Of a stretch of 64,000 bases of DNA, positions 32,231-39,282 are shown in pieces. The DNA is from Roseivirga thermotolerans (GTDB taxonomy: Bacteria; Bacteroidota; Bacteroidia; Cytophagales; Cyclobacteriaceae). The stretch is from the NCBI RefSeq assembly GCF_014653175.1, contig NZ_BNAG01000001.1:1302001-1366000 (forward strand), written 5' to 3'. The notes under the pieces are model-generated. The model was given only the letters and a program-made list of their open reading frames with translations. It searched no databases and was not told the origin of the DNA. Within the stretch, counting starts at the first letter, position 1. Each line of letters starts with the position of its first letter. A program made the position numbers and the translations under genes.

Positions 32231-32301
32231 TAAAGGCTGTTATACGCAAAGGCTCACAGAGATATAGCATAGGCAGGCTTTGAGACAGCCTTTTATTTTT
32301 G
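32231..32301 (+). terminator. Possible terminator between the ABC ATPase gene and crtW
   Basis: AAGGCTGT near 32231-32239 can pair with ACAGCCTT at 32286-32293, with a second weaker helix inside (AAAGGCT with the GGCAGGCTTT region). A T-rich stretch follows. The distal side overlaps the crtW stop codon. The loop is long, so termination strength is uncertain. Confidence 0.4.
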
Positions 32302-32994
32302 CCTGGCCGCATAGTTTTCTTTAACCTTCCAGAGCATCCACCAAGGTGTGCCGGGTGAAGCATGGTGCTCATAATGATAGCCAAAAAAATAACAGCTAAT
32401 AAACGCCCACACATGGTTTAGTCGCTGACTTCCCGATTTGTGAGGGTTTTCGGGAGCGTGTTCACCCCGGTGGGGCAGGTAGGTGCCAAAGTAGAAAAGC
32501 TGCAGGGTGGAAAGCACAGCCGGGAGCATCCAGTATACTATCAGCCTATCGGCAGGAATCCATAGCTTTAGTACATTGAACGAAATAGCCATGAGTACAA
32601 TCTGTTGCCATGAAATGTACTGCCTCAAAAAGCTGAAGTACCAGGCAAGAAAACCTCCCCTGTGGTAATCAGGGTCTTGGTCTGTAGCTACATGTCGGTG
32701 GTGTAAGTGGTGTTTTGGAAACAGTCTGTTGTAGAAATTATAGCTAAACAGTAATGCGCTAAGGTGACCGATAAAGTGATTTATTCTACTGTTTTTGGCC
32801 ACTGTTCCGTGCATGGCATCATGGGCTGTAATAAAAAGGCCGGTATAGAGATGTGTGAGAATGGCTATCAGCAAATAGGTGATGAGTGCACGTGAATTTA
32901 CCGGTTGTTGCAAAGCCCAGGTCAGCACACCAAACCAAAGCGCTATAATGATTAGCGCCACGTATATGCCCCTATTGCTTTTGGGTGTGACCAT
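32293..32994 (-). CDS. crtW: Beta-carotene ketolase-like fatty-acid-desaturase-fold enzyme (CrtW type)
   Basis: 233 residues, membrane-bound di-iron oxygenase. All histidine clusters are present: HDAMHG, HHLHHRHV, HRGEH and YHYEHH, between four hydrophobic helices. CrtW adds a 4-keto group to beta-ionone rings. It is the last gene of the carotenoid cluster, 16 bp after ispH, which supports a role in pigment synthesis rather than lipid desaturation. Length and motif spacing fit CrtW. The exact substrate (beta-carotene or a monocyclic carotenoid) is inference. Confidence 0.88.
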   Translation of the reverse strand: MVTPKSNRGIYVALIIIALWFGVLTWALQQPVNSRALITYLLIAILTHLYTGLFITAHDAMHGTVAKNSRINHFIGHLSALLFSYNFYNRLFPKHHLHHRHVATDQDPDYHRGGFLAWYFSFLRQYISWQQIVLMAISFNVLKLWIPADRLIVYWMLPAVLSTLQLFYFGTYLPHRGEHAPENPHKSGSQRLNHVWAFISCYFFGYHYEHHASPGTPWWMLWKVKENYAARQK

Positions 32995-33010: not shown

Positions 33011-33856
33011 TTATAGCTTTTCTAAGTGGTTTTTAACCTCTTCCATAAGCCACATGGGGGTAGAGGTGGCTCCGCAAATTCCTACAGTCTCGTTTTGAGC
33101 AAACCACTCGGTTTTTACATCGCTTATTGACGATACAAAGTGGGTACGCTGGTTTTGCTCGGCACATATCTTATACAAAACCTTTCCGTTGGAAGATTTG
33201 GTGCCACTCACAAATACAATTACATCGAATTTTTTGGCAAACTCCCGTAGCTCTTTGTCGCGGTTAGAAACCTGCCGGCAAATGGTGTCGTTGGATTTCA
33301 CGGCTATACCATTGGTTTCAAGCACCTGATTTATCTCGTAAAACTTATGGGTACTTTTAGTGGTCTGAGAATAGAGGGTAATCTCCTTCGGGAGTGCTGC
33401 TAAGTCTAGTTCTTCCAGGTCTTGAAAAACCACTGCCTCGTTGTTGGTCTGGCCTAGAAGCCCTACTACTTCAGCATGACCATGCTTACCGTAGATATAA
33501 ATTTTTTCCTCCTTGTCGTAGCTGGTTTTAATTCGGTTTTGAAGTTTGAGTACTACCGGGCACGATGCATCGATGAGCTCAAGATTGTTTTGCATGGCCA
33601 GTTGGTAAGTGCTTGGGGGTTCTCCGTGAGCGCGGATAAGTACTTTGGCATTTCGCAACGATAATAGCTGCGTATGGTCAATAATCCGAAGTCCCTTTTG
33701 CTCTAATCGTTTTACCTCTTCATCGTTATGAACAATGTCGCCCAGGCAGTAGAGTTGACCTTCTTCATCCAGAATTTCTTCGGCCATTTCTATGGCATAC
33801 ACTACCCCAAAGCAGAAGCCGGAATTAATGTCTATATCCACGCTGAGGTTGAACAT
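33011..33856 (-). CDS. ispH: 4-hydroxy-3-methylbut-2-enyl diphosphate reductase
   Basis: 281 residues with the three iron-sulfur cysteines in GFCFGVV, DASCPVV and GICGATSTP, plus the substrate-binding RAHGEP and GKHGHAEV motifs. IspH is the last step of the MEP pathway and yields IPP and DMAPP, the precursors of carotenoids and quinones. It sits between crtB (71 bp upstream) and crtW (16 bp downstream), so an essential housekeeping enzyme is embedded in the pigment operon and may be boosted with it. Assignment is secure. Confidence 0.95.
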   Translation of the reverse strand: MFNLSVDIDINSGFCFGVVYAIEMAEEILDEEGQLYCLGDIVHNDEEVKRLEQKGLRIIDHTQLLSLRNAKVLIRAHGEPPSTYQLAMQNNLELIDASCPVVLKLQNRIKTSYDKEEKIYIYGKHGHAEVVGLLGQTNNEAVVFQDLEELDLAALPKEITLYSQTTKSTHKFYEINQVLETNGIAVKSNDTICRQVSNRDKELREFAKKFDVIVFVSGTKSSNGKVLYKICAEQNQRTHFVSSISDVKTEWFAQNETVGICGATSTPMWLMEEVKNHLEKL

Positions 33857-33927: not shown

Positions 33928-34761
33928 CTAGATGGCGTGAATGCGGTGCCTGAAATATATGCCCAGTAGCATGGTAAGCTTGCGGGTGTCGGGTATGCGA
34001 ATTCGCTCTTCCTTAATGCGCTGCGGAGGACAGGCTTTTATTTTCTTGAAGAGTTTAAGGTAATATCTATAGGCCAGGTAAACCCCAAGCCTTGCTTCTG
34101 CGGGTAGCTTTCTGATTCCCGCCAGCGCTTCGTCAAAATCGTGTTGAATGTCTGCTTCTATGGCTTCTTTGGCCGATAGGCTAAAGTCGTTAAAGTTGAC
34201 TCCCGGAAAGTAAACGCGACCACGTTCTTCATAGTCGCTTTTGATGTCGCGAATAAAATTAACCTTCTGAAATGCTGCTCCCAATTTTTTGGCGGGGGGT
34301 ACCAACTCCTCATACAGGTGATTGTTGCCATTGCAGAATACTTTCAGACACATGAGTCCAACTACTTCGGCAGAACCATAAATGTATTCTTCGTAGCCTT
34401 CCTGATTGTAACTTGTTTCGCTAAGATCCAGGCGCATAGAATGCAAAAAGGCTTTAATGAGCTGATGGTCTATTTGGTATTGGTTCACAACCAGCTGAAA
34501 GGCATGTAACACTGGGTTTAGACTTATCTTTTCAGAAATGGCCTCAAAGGTATCATGCTCGAATTTATCTAGTAGGGCCAGTTTATCTTTAGAGTGAAAA
34601 GTATCCACTATTTCATCGGCATACCTCACAAAGCCATAAATGGCATAAATAGGAAAGTGGAGCTTTTTGTGCAGGGTTCTAATGCCCAGGGTAAACGAAG
34701 TGCTGTAGCGCTGAGTAATCAGCTTGCTGCACTCCAGTGTGGTTTGATCAAATAGCTCCAT
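33928..34761 (-). CDS. crtB: Phytoene synthase
   Basis: 277 residues of the squalene/phytoene synthase family, with aspartate-rich motifs YADEIVD and VNFIRDIKSDYEERGRVYFP. It condenses two geranylgeranyl diphosphates into phytoene, the first committed carotenoid step. It lies 32 bp after crtI on the same strand and 71 bp before ispH. The combination with crtI, crtZ and crtW makes phytoene synthase much more likely than squalene synthase. Confidence 0.95.
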   Translation of the reverse strand: MELFDQTTLECSKLITQRYSTSFTLGIRTLHKKLHFPIYAIYGFVRYADEIVDTFHSKDKLALLDKFEHDTFEAISEKISLNPVLHAFQLVVNQYQIDHQLIKAFLHSMRLDLSETSYNQEGYEEYIYGSAEVVGLMCLKVFCNGNNHLYEELVPPAKKLGAAFQKVNFIRDIKSDYEERGRVYFPGVNFNDFSLSAKEAIEADIQHDFDEALAGIRKLPAEARLGVYLAYRYYLKLFKKIKACPPQRIKEERIRIPDTRKLTMLLGIYFRHRIHAI

Positions 34762-34793: not shown

Positions 34794-36269
34794 TTATGAA
34801 AAATCTTTGGCCACCTCATTGGCTACTACAATTCCTGAAATCAGGCTGGGAGGTACTCCGGGACCGGGTACTGTTAGCTGACCGGTGTAGTAAAGATTCT
34901 TGAGGTGTTTATTTTTGAGTGCCGGTTTTAATATGGCTGTCTGCCGCAACGTATTGGCCAGTCCATAAGCATTGCCTTTGAAGGAGTGGTAGTCGTTTAC
35001 AAAGTCGGTATGGGCAAAGCTCCTCTTATAAACGATGTGCTCGGCTAAGGTTTGGCCACAGTAGTCTTCCATTCGTTTCAGGATTAGTTCAAAATAGTGC
35101 TCCCTTATGGTGTCGGTGTCTTGCAGCCCGGGGGCTACGGGAATAAGGAGAAACAAGTTTTCACAGCCTTCCGGGGCAACGGTTTCATCGGTTTTAGAAG
35201 TAACCGAAGCATAGAACAGTGGTTTTTCTGGCCACTGTGGGTTGGTGTATATGTGATGGGCGTGGGGAGAGAAATCCGTATCGAAAAAAAGGTTGTGGTG
35301 CAAAAGCCCTTCGAGCTTTTTGTCGAGCCCAACATAGTAGAGTAAAGAGGATGGAGCGAGAACACGCTTGTCCCAGTACTTATCGGAGTAATTTCTTGTG
35401 GAATCGTTGAGCAGTTGAGTATCTACATGGTGATAGTCTGCCCCGGCAACAACCACGTCTGCCTGAAAATTACCTTTGTTGGTTTCTACATGAGTTATTT
35501 TTTGTCCGTGACTAACAATGGAGGTCACCTCATAATCGGTTTTTATTTCAACACCAAGTTCGGAGGCTAAGCTGCCCAGGGCTTCCACAATCTTATACAT
35601 ACCACCTTTTGGGTACCATGTGCCTAAGGCCATGTCGGCATAGTTCATCAGGCTGTAGAGCGCTGGAGTATTTTGCGGTAAAGCACCTAAGAAGAGTACC
35701 GGAAACTCCATAAGCTGAACCAACTTTGGATGCTTAAAGTATTTTCTGACATGCCGGGCCATGGACTGAAACACATCCATTCTTACCACATCAAAAAGTA
35801 GTTTCAAGCTGGCAAATTCTTTCAACGATCGGCCCGGTTTGTATACCAGTTGGTTAATTCCCACTTCGTACTTATAGGCTGCCTGCCTCAGAAATGCTTC
35901 CAGCCGATCTCCCGCACCTTCTTCCAGAGAGTCGAACAATTTTTTAAGCGCGTCCATTTTTGCAGGTATAGGCATGGCTTGACCACCTTCGTAAATTACC
36001 TGGTAGGAAGGGTCGAGTCTTATCAGCTCGTAATAATCGGAAACTGACTTGCCAAACCGATTGAAGAAGGACTCGAACACATCGGGCATCCAGTACCAAC
36101 TGGGGCCCATATCAAAAGTAAAGCCCGACTCGGTAAATTGTCGGGCTCTTCCTCCAATGGAGTTATTTTTTTCTAGAATAGTAACACTAAAACCTTTGTC
36201 GGCCAGATTAATGGCGGCAGACAGTCCGGCAAAACCAGAACCTATAACCAGTGCCTTTTTCCGATTCAT
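34794..36269 (-). CDS. crtI: Phytoene desaturase
   Basis: 491 residues. The N-terminal dinucleotide-binding motif is GSGFAGLSAAINLADKG with the following E residue and GGRA. The C-terminal FAD block is YYTGQLTVPGPGVPPSLISG, as in CrtI proteins. It introduces four double bonds to turn phytoene into lycopene. CrtD-type 3,4-desaturases are close relatives, but position next to crtB favours CrtI. It starts 16 bp after the ECF sigma factor stop, so the sigma gene and the crt genes are one transcription unit. Confidence 0.95.
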   Translation of the reverse strand: MNRKKALVIGSGFAGLSAAINLADKGFSVTILEKNNSIGGRARQFTESGFTFDMGPSWYWMPDVFESFFNRFGKSVSDYYELIRLDPSYQVIYEGGQAMPIPAKMDALKKLFDSLEEGAGDRLEAFLRQAAYKYEVGINQLVYKPGRSLKEFASLKLLFDVVRMDVFQSMARHVRKYFKHPKLVQLMEFPVLFLGALPQNTPALYSLMNYADMALGTWYPKGGMYKIVEALGSLASELGVEIKTDYEVTSIVSHGQKITHVETNKGNFQADVVVAGADYHHVDTQLLNDSTRNYSDKYWDKRVLAPSSLLYYVGLDKKLEGLLHHNLFFDTDFSPHAHHIYTNPQWPEKPLFYASVTSKTDETVAPEGCENLFLLIPVAPGLQDTDTIREHYFELILKRMEDYCGQTLAEHIVYKRSFAHTDFVNDYHSFKGNAYGLANTLRQTAILKPALKNKHLKNLYYTGQLTVPGPGVPPSLISGIVVANEVAKDFS

Positions 36270-36285: not shown

Positions 36286-36792
36286 CTAGCCTCTATATGT
36301 TCTAAGTTTTTCTTTCAATTGCTTTCTGGCAATATGAATTCTATTCTTTACCGTACCAATAGGAATTTCGAGTCTATCGGCAATCTCATGATACTTAAAC
36401 CCTCTGAAATACATCATAAAAGGAGTTTTATACACATCGTCCAGCGAATCTATCGCATGGTTAATGTCTTTCAGTGCAAAATTTCCGTAGGCTCCATTTT
36501 CAATTTTAGTATTGCTAGAGTTAATAAAATGAAGATTGTCGGTAGTGTCAATAAAGGTGCCTCTTCTTACCATTCGTTGGTAATTGGTAATAAAGGTGTT
36601 TTTCATGATGGTATATAACCATGCCTTCAGATTGGTGCCTTCAGAAAATTTCTCCCTGTTCTTGTAGGCCTTCATGAGTGTTTCCTGAAGCAAGTCGTTC
36701 GCATCTTCAGAATCCTTTGTGAGCTTTAGTGCAAATGGTTTTAAGGACTTGGTCATTTGCGTAATGGTGTAACTATATTCCAGAGCAGTCAT
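36286..36792 (-). CDS. ECF sigma factor heading the carotenoid operon
   Basis: 168 residues from ATG 36792; the frame runs on to a TTG at 36837, which falls at the predicted transcription start and inside a repeat, so I reject it. Region 2 holds DANDLLQETLMKAYKNREKF and LKAWLYTIMKNTF. Region 4 holds DDVYKTPFMMYFRGFKYHEIADRLEIPIGTVKNRIHIARKQL. No anti-sigma gene adjoins it, so its activity is probably set by transcription through the repeats upstream. By analogy with Streptomyces LitS, it may drive further carotenoid promoters. Family is secure; regulon is inferred. Confidence 0.92.
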   Translation of the reverse strand: MTALEYSYTITQMTKSLKPFALKLTKDSEDANDLLQETLMKAYKNREKFSEGTNLKAWLYTIMKNTFITNYQRMVRRGTFIDTTDNLHFINSSNTKIENGAYGNFALKDINHAIDSLDDVYKTPFMMYFRGFKYHEIADRLEIPIGTVKNRIHIARKQLKEKLRTYRG

Positions 36793-37232
36793 AGTGTTTG
36801 CTTTAATGTTGAACAAATATTGTAAAACGTTAAACAAAAGTCAAGTATATTTTGTGGAAATATTTATTTCAAACGTTAAACAAAAAAATACGTTACACTC
36901 GTTTTGATTAAAATTTGGTTCAGTATTGCCATGAATCATTAAACACTTTGTGTTTAAGGGTATGTACATATAAATATTTTTAGAATGCCGTAAGCCGCAC
37001 TTTACATCCTGAGTGCCACAGTTTATATACGGTGTAGGGAAGTGTTAGAGATTGAGGTAACTCAAAACTTTTACCAAAGGGGTGGTATCTATCTTATAGA
37101 AGTAAACCAACAACATGAGTTACAAGCTTTGACTTAAGAGCGTCTTATAAGAGCCGTTTGTGAAGACACAAATAATGTCTAAACGTATGTTATACGATTT
37201 AACTAGCTAACCCTCTAAAAATATTGGAGAAA
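36793..37232 (-). promoter_or_regulatory. 440-bp regulatory region of the carotenoid operon with direct repeats
   Basis: No convincing gene is present. On the minus strand TTTG (36870-36873) and TATACTTG (36842-36849), 20 nt apart, form a Bacteroidota -33/-7 promoter that would start near 36836. Two perfect 15-bp copies of AAACGTTAAACAAAA (plus-strand reading) lie at 36825-36839 and 36871-36885, covering the start site and the -33 element. A looser copy (TAATGTTGAACAAAT) is at 36804-36818. Further upstream, TTAAACAC and GTGTTTAA face each other at 36939-36957, and CGTAT-GTT-ATACG lies at 37184-37196. These look like operators, most simply for the CarH/LitR-like regulator encoded just upstream. 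Confidence 0.6.
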
Positions 37233-38135
37233 CTATCGGCTAACTGAGTGTCCCTGCTGCTCTTCTATGAATTCAAGCAAATGATTGGGGTTGGCTATCT
37301 GAACAATATTTTCTTTCAATTCCAAATCTTGTCCAATTACCTGGCTGCCGGCCACCAATATGGGGGTATCCGAAAAATTATCGGCCAGATTGGCCAGGTA
37401 TTCTTCCGTAGAAATGTTTCGGTCTTTGGTGGTCATAATGGTGAGAAGGTAGTCAGGTTTATAGGCGTTGAAGGCCACTTGTAAATCTTGGAAAGGCATA
37501 TTTTGACCAAGGTAGACCACGCGATTGCCTCGAGCACGAATAAGGTAGTTGGCAAACAAAAGACTTAGTTCATGCAGTTCGCCTTCGGGCAGAAAGAGCA
37601 TATACTTCTTGGCTTCTTCATCATAGGTTTCGTATTGCCCGTCTATGGCTACGATTACTTTTTGCCGAATGAGATTAGAAATAAAGTGCTCTTGAGCCGG
37701 GTTGATGGAATCGGTGATCCACATGATTCCTATTTTGGTGAGGAATGGATAAATTATATTGAGCATGGTGCGCTCAAAACCAATTTTAAGTGTATTGGAT
37801 GAAATTATTTTTTCGAACCGTTGTTCGTCAAGGTCTATCATGGCCAGAGTGAGGCCATAAATCTGATCGGCAAAACTGGTGGCCTTGTCGGCAATTTCCA
37901 AAACGGTTTCATGCATCTCCTCTTTGCTCATTTGAGCGATTTTGGAAATTTTGAATCCGTTATCTTTCAACAAAGACACGTTCAATATCAATTTCAGATC
38001 GTCCTGATCGTAAAATCTGATATTTGTATCTGTTCTTTTCGGGTTGATGAGCCCATATCGTTGCTCCCAAATTCTGAGCGTATGCGCTTTAATTCCCGAA
38101 AGGTGTTCTAAATCTTTAATCGAATAATTTGCCAA
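37233..38135 (-). CDS. CarH/LitR-type MerR regulator with B12-binding domain (probable photoreceptor)
   Basis: 300 residues from TTG 38135, 4 bp after the crtZ stop. Residues 1-70 are a MerR helix-turn-helix (LRIWEQRYGLINPKRT). Residues 85-160 form the four-helix bundle with W139-x9-E149-H150, the motif that caps adenosylcobalamin in CarH. Residues 177-295 are a Rossmann-like cobalamin-binding domain with the presumed lower ligand H188 in EGELHELS. The Gly normally three residues after that His is Ser191. In the family, dark AdoCbl-bound tetramers repress carotenoid genes and light breaks the Co-C bond. Its place inside the crt cluster fits that role. Confidence 0.87.
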   Translation of the reverse strand: MANYSIKDLEHLSGIKAHTLRIWEQRYGLINPKRTDTNIRFYDQDDLKLILNVSLLKDNGFKISKIAQMSKEEMHETVLEIADKATSFADQIYGLTLAMIDLDEQRFEKIISSNTLKIGFERTMLNIIYPFLTKIGIMWITDSINPAQEHFISNLIRQKVIVAIDGQYETYDEEAKKYMLFLPEGELHELSLLFANYLIRARGNRVVYLGQNMPFQDLQVAFNAYKPDYLLTIMTTKDRNISTEEYLANLADNFSDTPILVAGSQVIGQDLELKENIVQIANPNHLLEFIEEQQGHSVSR

Positions 38136-38139
38136 TCCC

Positions 38140-38589
38140 CTACTCTTTATTTCCTTCTTCCTTCAAAAACCTTCTCGGCACGACAAATAAGCCGAAAGAC
38201 ACAGCATTTTCTTTCTGTGTTTGATGATGGGCCTTATGGGCTTCTGCTATAGCTTTGAGGTATTTGTTTTTGGGTTTGTCGAACCATTTTAACCTTCGAT
38301 GTATAAGTACATCGTGAAGCAAAAAGTACGACATTCCATAAAGACTAATACCGCAGCCAATCCAAAAACGATAGTCTAGCTGTTCTACTCCCAGAAGAAT
38401 GAGCGCAATGGCCGTACCTCCGAAGATGCAAGTAAACACATCGTTGAGTTCAAAGAATCCTTTGCCATGGGTGTGGTGAGTTTTGTGAATATTCCAAAGT
38501 ACACCGTGCATCAAATATTTATGAATTACCCATGAAAAGGCTTCCATCAAACAAAAACCCATTAATGTCCATAGAACTGCGTTCCACAT
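38140..38589 (-). CDS. crtZ: Beta-carotene hydroxylase
   Basis: 149 residues of the membrane fatty-acid hydroxylase superfamily with the di-iron histidine pattern of CrtZ: HKYLMHG, HKTHHTHG, HDVLIHRR and HKAHH. Four hydrophobic stretches separate them. It adds 3-hydroxyl groups to beta-ionone rings. It follows the CruF-like gene by 42 bp and precedes the CarH-like gene by 4 bp. Assignment is confident. Confidence 0.93.
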   Translation of the reverse strand: MWNAVLWTLMGFCLMEAFSWVIHKYLMHGVLWNIHKTHHTHGKGFFELNDVFTCIFGGTAIALILLGVEQLDYRFWIGCGISLYGMSYFLLHDVLIHRRLKWFDKPKNKYLKAIAEAHKAHHQTQKENAVSFGLFVVPRRFLKEEGNKE

Positions 38590-38631: not shown

Positions 38632-39282
38632 TCAAATTAAATTGAGCACGGCAAAGAAACCGGCTAGTATAAATAAAAGCTTAATAGCCAGAGGATTGTT
38701 TGACCGGGGAGCAAGAAAATTAAAGAGGTATTGAAGCCCAAGGCTCAGCACAAACCAGCCCACGTAGTTGGTCATTGGAATTTCGCTGCCTTTCCATTGC
38801 CAGAAGTCGTAGGTAATGGCCACAGGTTCTATGAGTAGGTCTAGCAGAGTCATTATAAGGGCTCCGAGCAGTGCCGCCACATGCAGCGACTTGGTGAGCT
38901 TTTTGGACAGCATGCCTGCACAGTATACCAGTACCACCCAGTTTAATCCAATGGCAAGAGGAACGTCCAGCAATTTCCAGCCCAGAGTGTTTCCGTATGT
39001 GTAGTGGCCGAATAATAGGCCTGTTTTTACGCCCACAACCTCGGCAAAAAAGCCAATTCCAAAGGTGAGAATTATGAACAGGAAGTAGCCCCTTTTCTTT
39101 TGTTCTTCGAAGTGGAGCACAATGGCAGCCGTAGCCAGCAGATTGAAAGGGGTAAGGCTCTGGAAAAGCGATTGTGTGCCTTGAAAGTATAGTCCTACTG
39201 CACCGGCCAGGTGCATGGCCACCAAAAGCCACAAGGCATTTTTTTGATTGACAAAAGGAAGTTGGTCTATCTTGGCAAGCAT
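38632..39282 (-). CDS. cruF: Carotenoid 1,2-hydratase-like membrane protein (CruF family)
   Basis: 216 residues with six or seven hydrophobic segments. It carries the CruF/DUF422 signature FAEVVGVKTGLLFGHYTYGNTLG and the DLLIEPVAITYDFWQW block. CruF hydrates the psi end of a carotenoid to give a tertiary hydroxyl at C1'. Together with CrtZ and CrtW acting on a beta ring, this suits a monocyclic product such as flexixanthin. It is the first gene of the minus-strand cluster, with its ATG at 39282 and 75 bp to the divergent small gene. The alternative, an archaeal-type C50 hydratase role, is less likely here. Confidence 0.82.
   Translation of the reverse strand: MLAKIDQLPFVNQKNALWLLVAMHLAGAVGLYFQGTQSLFQSLTPFNLLATAAIVLHFEEQKKRGYFLFIILTFGIGFFAEVVGVKTGLLFGHYTYGNTLGWKLLDVPLAIGLNWVVLVYCAGMLSKKLTKSLHVAALLGALIMTLLDLLIEPVAITYDFWQWKGSEIPMTNYVGWFVLSLGLQYLFNFLAPRSNNPLAIKLLFILAGFFAVLNLI

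Follow-up and report, generated by a model that had tools for sequence, protein, structure and literature searches.

The window, a stretch of 64,000 nucleotides from the genome of Roseivirga thermotolerans, carries a group of carotenoid genes in which a 440-bp gap (36793-37232) lies between the gene of a CarH-like regulator and an operon led by an ECF sigma factor gene, both on the minus strand (Table 1). An earlier note on this DNA had described two perfect 15-bp direct repeats within the gap, and the 15-mer AAACGTTAAACAAAA is indeed found there in two exact copies. A direct exact repeat of at least 15 bases arose in only 1 of 2,000 dinucleotide shuffles of the gap. The 11-base core, ACGTTAAACAA, occurs three times in the 4.2-Mb genome, two of these in the gap, and a backward-read control also gave three; the closeness of the two copies, rather than their count, is therefore unusual.

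Table 1. Genes, operator boxes and promoter elements at the carotenoid locus (positions in the window)
Feature	Positions	Strand	Content or basis
Desaturase-family gene, closest to beta-carotene ketolase CrtW but below cut-off	32293..32994	-	
ispH/lytB	33011..33856	-	PF02401; NCBIfam cut-off reached
crtB-like phytoene synthase gene	33928..34761	-	PF00494, E 3e-44
crtI-type phytoene desaturase gene	34794..36269	-	NCBIfam CrtID, 776 bits (cut-off 640)
ECF sigma factor gene, first of the operon	36286..36792	-	PF04542 and PF08281; ATG at 36792
Proximal box	36805..36838	-	F2 TTTGTTTAA at 36830-36838 and R2 TTCAACATT at 36805-36813; starts 25 bp apart; conserved in relatives
Inferred -7 element AATATTTG	36814..36821	-	Comparative alignment; one mismatch to TAnnTTTG
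Proximal 15-bp repeat of the earlier note	36825..36839	-	Holds left arm F2
Inferred -33 element CTTG	36842..36845	-	Comparative alignment
Distal box	36851..36884	-	F1 TTTGTTTAA at 36876-36884 and R1 TTCCACAAA at 36851-36859
Distal 15-bp repeat of the earlier note	36871..36885	-	Holds left arm F1
CarH-like MerR/B12 regulator gene; product the proposed box binder	37233..38135	-	PF13411, PF02607; CarH chains best in PDB (sequence and fold)
Fatty-acid-hydroxylase-family gene adjoining the regulator, carotenoid hydroxylase-like by context	38140..38589	-	PF04116
Carotenoid biosynthesis protein gene, CruF-like, below cut-off	38632..39282	-	PF04240, TIGR03460

Two inverted-repeat boxes and their half-site

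The unit conserved in related genomes is a 34-bp inverted-repeat box, TTTGTTTAA-N16-TTAAACAAA (arms F and R), which occurs in duplicate before the ECF-sigma/crtI/crtB operon, the two boxes lying about 44 bp apart in relatives and 46 bp apart in the window. The search for the repeat upstream of ECF/crtI genes in relatives, as proposed in the earlier note, recovered the left arms as parts of inverted boxes. The 15-bp repeats thus exist but make up half of the element, and we rejected them as the functional unit since the inverted box is what relatives conserve. Across 130 regions upstream of ECF genes, distances between arms peak at 25 bp for F-R (130 counts), at 19 for R-F, and at 44 for both F-F and R-R; further peaks at 4-5 (F-R) and 20-21 (F-F) arise because the TTTG of the -7 element abuts R2. 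The full layout F1-R1-F2-R2 with a score of at least 28 of 36 was found at 92 of the 130 loci, in none of the 390 shuffles and in none of the 129 far-upstream stretches, and the window itself scores 30 with spacings of 25/46/25. Score thresholds (14.5-16 for a single box, 28 for the double box) were chosen after the data had been seen, and controls were counted at several of them. Reversed sequences matched in 104 of the 130 regions and are uninformative as a control because the reversed motif resembles the motif; shuffles and far-upstream stretches were used instead, 21 of the 129 latter containing any single arm. The distal box is the sole exact match to TTTGTTTAA-N16-TTNNACAAA in the window's genome. 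It is eroded in three of five congeners (G192, G149 and G057) that retain the proximal box, so the latter probably matters more than the distal one.

Each arm reduces to TnnACA, and all four arms of the window match this half-site. T, A and C never vary across the 92 loci, and the last A persists in 82-92 of them; the nn positions do vary, above all in R1 (A 76, C 14, G 1, T 1 at position 7; A 49, G 27, C 12, T 4 at position 8). Loci were selected equally on nine bases, so selection is not the reason for this variation. TnnACA is also the half-site of CarH operators (PMC9304148), and is thus common to the window's boxes and the operators of known CarH proteins. The operator could be of the known CarH kind, built of tandem 11-bp direct repeats of which some are too degenerate for detection: the F-F and R-R distances of 44 bp equal 4 x 11, and CarH operators with degenerate repeats have been described (PMC9304148). 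A full TnnACA on the same strand at 11 or 22 bp from an arm, however, occurs in just 0-14% of boxes in four sets (of 14, 26, 37 and 83 boxes, whose arms score high partly by selection). We rejected tandem 11-bp repeats for this reason, and consider such an operator the least probable of the arrangements weighed here.

Two further features named in the earlier note are present in the gap. A looser copy lies 21 bp from the proximal repeat (TGAACA at 36810 against TAAACA at 36831, plus strand) and corresponds to the -7/right-arm region. The inverted pair further upstream, TTAAACAC-TTT-GTGTTTAA at 36939-36957, has perfect 8-bp inverted arms with outward-facing half-sites; by eye it was not found in the roughly 170 bp upstream of the ECF gene in five congeners, and was excluded from the operator model.

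A predicted promoter overlapped by the proximal box

Alignment of 81 loci on R2 revealed a common order of elements: TTtG, a spacer containing F2, TAnnTTTG, one base, and then R2. TAnnTTTG is perfect in 51 of the 81, and is preceded by [TC]TTG at a distance of 19 bases in 42 loci and of 20 bases in 8. By comparison with these columns, the promoter of the window would consist of CTTG and AATATTTG at the positions given in Table 1, and transcription should start within R2. The main promoter of Bacteroidota has the flavobacterial consensus TTG + TAnnTTTG (PMC3587595); the promoter under the operator is of that type, a likeness in promoter class and not in regulatory system. The operator overlaps these comparatively inferred promoter elements of the carotenoid genes, as CarH operators do.

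The earlier note had placed a promoter, TTTG-N20-TATACTTG, between and across its direct repeats, with the downstream repeat on the start site. Those strings are present on the minus strand (TTTG at 36870-36873, TATACTTG at 36842-36849), and a second, upstream promoter could lie there. The columns conserved in relatives, however, place the promoter one unit (about 28 bp) downstream: the earlier -7 element falls on the -33 element, and the proximal repeat, instead of covering the start site, lies in the spacer with F2. We accordingly rejected the earlier position for the main promoter. With the direct repeats being the left arms of boxes, a layout in which they flank that promoter has a very slim chance of being correct.

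The CarH-like regulator and its linkage to the box

The product of the regulator gene resembles CarH, with specific departures in its cobalamin-binding part. Its MerR DNA-binding domain matches PF13411 at E 1.8e-16, and its recognition helix, RIWEQRY, is one residue off RxWERRY; among 37 aligned regulators R21, W23, E24 and R26 are invariant and Y27 nearly so. Wx9EH is found in 112 of 113 ECF-adjacent regulators (W139, E149 and H150 in the window), and the lower axial histidine motif, D/ExH, is likewise kept (E186 in 37/37 proteins, H188 in 36/37). The classic B12 motif, D/ExHx2G/P-x41-SxT/V-x22-27-GG (PMC9304148), is incomplete in the window, where the aligned places read ExHx2S, IxT and AG, with Gly191 replaced by Ser, Ser233 by Ile and the first Gly of GG by Ala. 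The window regulator has no match to PF02310, and the NCBIfam CarH equivalog is its top-scoring family at 88.5 bits against a cut-off of 400. A predicted model (mean pLDDT 86.6, pTM 0.76) nonetheless has the fold of a CarH protomer: CarH chains fill the first 12 places among the Foldseek matches (E 3.4e-14 to 8.6e-12), with a TM of 0.5-0.6 and an rmsd of 10-16 A over the whole chain and about 3.4-4.9 A for cobalamin-domain chains. By both sequence and predicted fold, the closest solved structure is CarH of Thermus thermophilus. Given the incomplete B12 motif, we call the protein CarH-like rather than filing it as a proven CarH. A paralogous MerR/B12-type regulator, 46% identical, is encoded elsewhere in the window's genome (G000:C1:461524-462426, L039), and its 3.9-kb locus has no box scoring 15.5 or more.

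Cobalamin binding by the regulator is probable from these residues. It is rather unlikely, in our estimate, that the regulator binds the boxes independently of cobalamin or senses differently, in the manner of CarA or of class II LitR, with another signal or a partner protein. The three substitutions in the B12 signature and the missing PF02310 match speak for such a regulator, as does the residue after the Trp of Wx9EH: this position, His132 of T. thermophilus CarH and there the upper ligand of the light state, is Gln in 96 of 112 proteins and Ile in the window, so that one would not expect two His ligands in a light state. A class II LitR, moreover, is the effector of a LOV photoreceptor (PMC9758184). 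Against it stand the near-universal retention of Wx9EH, which contacts the adenosyl group, and of the ligand His; an intact Wx9EH separates CarH from the B12-independent CarA (PMC9304148).

We then considered whether the box follows the regulator gene across genomes. In 146 of 196 genomes of the family the ECF protein had a match at E 1e-40 or better, and 147 ECF loci in 141 genomes, among the matches listed and including second copies in some genomes, were examined. A co-directional regulator gene lies upstream at 113 of the 147 (median distance from match end to ECF start, 244 bp). A box scoring at least 14.5 is present at 111 of these 113 loci and at 19 of the 34 without an adjacent regulator (Fisher p 1.6e-9, relatedness ignored); at a score of at least 15, the counts are 106/113 and 19/34. 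Background at 14.5 was 7 of 581 control 200-bp stretches further upstream and 20 of 735 shuffles. Among the 34 loci lacking an adjacent regulator, 28 have a regulator match elsewhere (17 with a box) and six have none at E 1e-40 (two with a box). Individual genomes follow the same association: G142 has neither detected regulator nor box, and its congeners G036 (score 16), G107 (17) and G186 (a weak 14.5) carry both; in G010 the regulator is followed by the box and then by crtI, and no box stands at the detached ECF gene. Outside the family, a regulator match was found in 118 of 198 genomes, and among the best-scoring 27 loci a box of at least 15 was found at 10 of 11 regulator-ECF loci (the exception, G388, scores 13.0), these boxes spanning seven families (f38, f30, f21, f47, f28, f11 and f56). 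The 16 of those 27 loci without a following ECF gene had no box, which counts against our preferred explanation.

Other observations also count against it, and would favor a different conserved DNA-binding protein as the reader of the boxes. G013 and G069 have an adjacent regulator and no box at 14.5; in genus g50 (G049, G113 and G147; L299, L300 and L301) the regulator is unlinked, and no box stands either at the ECF gene or next to the regulator. Conversely, G008 and G089 have the box with no regulator detected, although these two box-only genomes are just 83 and 82% complete. The absence of the box in g50 could reflect either lost control or changed recognition. Since the box is linked to the regulator gene and its half-site is TnnACA, another binding protein is very unlikely; the box also accompanies the regulator in other families and when crtI is the gene that comes next.

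We therefore favor the explanation that the element is the dark operator of the adjacent CarH-like, probably B12-dependent MerR repressor, composed of two inverted TnnACA boxes, and consider it likely. Computation provides the box, its conservation and spacing, the TnnACA pattern, the linkage to the regulator gene and the other genes neighbouring the box; from these we infer the binder, its oligomeric form, the roles of cobalamin and light, and repression as the effect. The proximal box would extend over the -7 element, the spacer between it and the -33 element, and the inferred start, with the distal box immediately upstream. In the dark, cobalamin-loaded regulator, probably a tetramer or a pair of dimers, would sit on all four half-sites and bar RNA polymerase from the promoter; in light the complex would be broken, and the ECF sigma factor gene, crtI and crtB would be switched on. 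The earlier note's multimeric repressor over the carotenoid promoter, supplied by the CarH-like neighbour, survives here as a multi-site operator tied to the CarH-like gene by conservation, linkage and half-site, with its geometry revised to two inverted boxes, four half-sites and a promoter about 28 bp downstream.

Box sites at other genes and known systems

In relatives, the same protein may act on the single boxes that precede pterin-synthase and rhodopsin genes. The exact box TTTGTTTAA-N16-TTNNACAAA is found in 101 of 196 family genomes (backward-read control, 13). Among 20 non-ECF sites, hand-picked from the matches listed rather than drawn at random, 13 lie directly before a gene of the 6-pyruvoyl-tetrahydropterin-synthase family, and at 12 of the 13 an L,D-transpeptidase-like gene flanks the site on its other side, further away; four lie between a bacteriorhodopsin-like gene and gyrB (L178:2515, L180:2470, L182:2520 and L190:2517); and one precedes crtI. 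We take these bacteriorhodopsin-like genes, judging by a motif, to be of the proton-pump type, and the boxes between them and gyrB are candidates for control of the pump by light and B12. Two single boxes, one between a gene without Pfam matches and a flavin-reductase-like gene and the other preceding a fasciclin gene (L194:2546 and L196:2502), mark possible further targets.

Upstream regions of rhodopsin and pterin-synthase genes are enriched in the box. A box of at least 15 was found in 40 of 44 rhodopsin upstream regions (the 44 loci taken from 67 matches in 63 genomes), against 0 of 74 control stretches and 3 of 880 base shuffles. For pterin synthase, with matches in 193 genomes, the corresponding counts are 29 of 36, 0 of 66 and 2 of 720, in a set biased to close relatives because it comprises the 30 loci nearest to the query and six of the window's genus. 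Outside the family, where 59 of 295 genomes had a rhodopsin match, 11 of the best-scoring 28 loci, from seven families, carry a box of at least 16 and 17 do not (controls, 0/26).

The window's genome has no bacteriorhodopsin-like gene at E 1e-25. Its second box (L257, G000:C3:834653-834686), TTTGTTGAA-N16-TTGAACAAT, stands before a pterin-synthase gene, with nn changed and T + ACA kept. A stricter box pattern had no match in this genome, and a looser one returned the window box together with C1:1139885, C3:834653, C4:671411 and C5:51847; of the four further places we accept only that on C3 as real, because two matches were also obtained with the backward control. Within the genus, the pterin-synthase box is present in four of six genomes (scores 15-16), again with differing nn and T + ACA kept, and its absence from G171 and G192 counts against our preferred explanation. 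Light-responsive control of pterin genes has been described for class II LitR regulators of Pseudomonas (PMC9758184). Rhodopsin expression has been reported as constitutive in Dokdonia PRO95 (PMC3587595), so that light control need not hold everywhere.

Taken together, these sites suggest a light-box regulon of Bacteroidia in which a CarH-like B12 photoreceptor, on inverted TnnACA pairs, would co-repress carotenoid, pterin and rhodopsin pump genes in the dark, gating rhodopsin light harvesting by light and B12 supply; we regard the case for and against it as evenly balanced. If true, the pigment and light-energy state of these heterotrophs would depend in part on B12 availability. The boxes in any case provide an exact, testable operator for a widespread regulator of Bacteroidota, with CarH-type half-sites in a different geometry. 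Systems of this kind are known; the layout of the operator and the link to rhodopsin appear to be new. Literature on CarH with Bacteroidota, ECF sigma factors or proteorhodopsin, covered mostly as titles and abstracts and thinly for subscription journals, yielded no such operator or regulon and no CarH-rhodopsin link, and 'Bacteroid' is not mentioned in the available text of an account of LitR classes (PMC9758184).

The nearest relatives among known systems are the CarH proteins of T. thermophilus and Bacillus megaterium (class I LitR), whose operators are tandem 11-bp direct repeats, nnnnTnnACAn (PMC9304148). They share with the window's system a MerR domain followed by a cap and a Rossmann module, Wx9EH, the ligand His, the TnnACA half-site and the overlap with a carotenoid promoter. 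Here, in contrast, the half-sites form inverted pairs 25 bp apart in two boxes 44-46 bp apart, with no tandem 11-bp repeats; the classic B12 motif is present only in part, Gln mostly follows the Trp of Wx9EH, and boxes also precede rhodopsin and pterin genes. Class II LitR of Pseudomonas (PplR, PmlR2) recognizes T(G/A)TACA and has phrB, cryB and folE in its regulon (PMC9758184), resembling the present system in TnnACA-type sites and pterin genes; it differs in that its B12-binding part is reduced to a four-helix domain and PmlR2 serves a LOV photoreceptor. The CarA/CarH operator at Pcrt of Myxococcus xanthus, about 55 bp long, was described as two inverted repeats and subsequently interpreted as three DRs and two drs (PMC9304148). 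There too, the promoter of a carotenoid operon carries a neighbouring pair of inverted repeats, and CarA has been shown to bind as two dimers. Sequence and spacing differ, and at Pcrt one repeat lies upstream of the -35 element and the other overlaps it, whereas the proximal box described here would cover the spacer, the -7 element and the inferred start.
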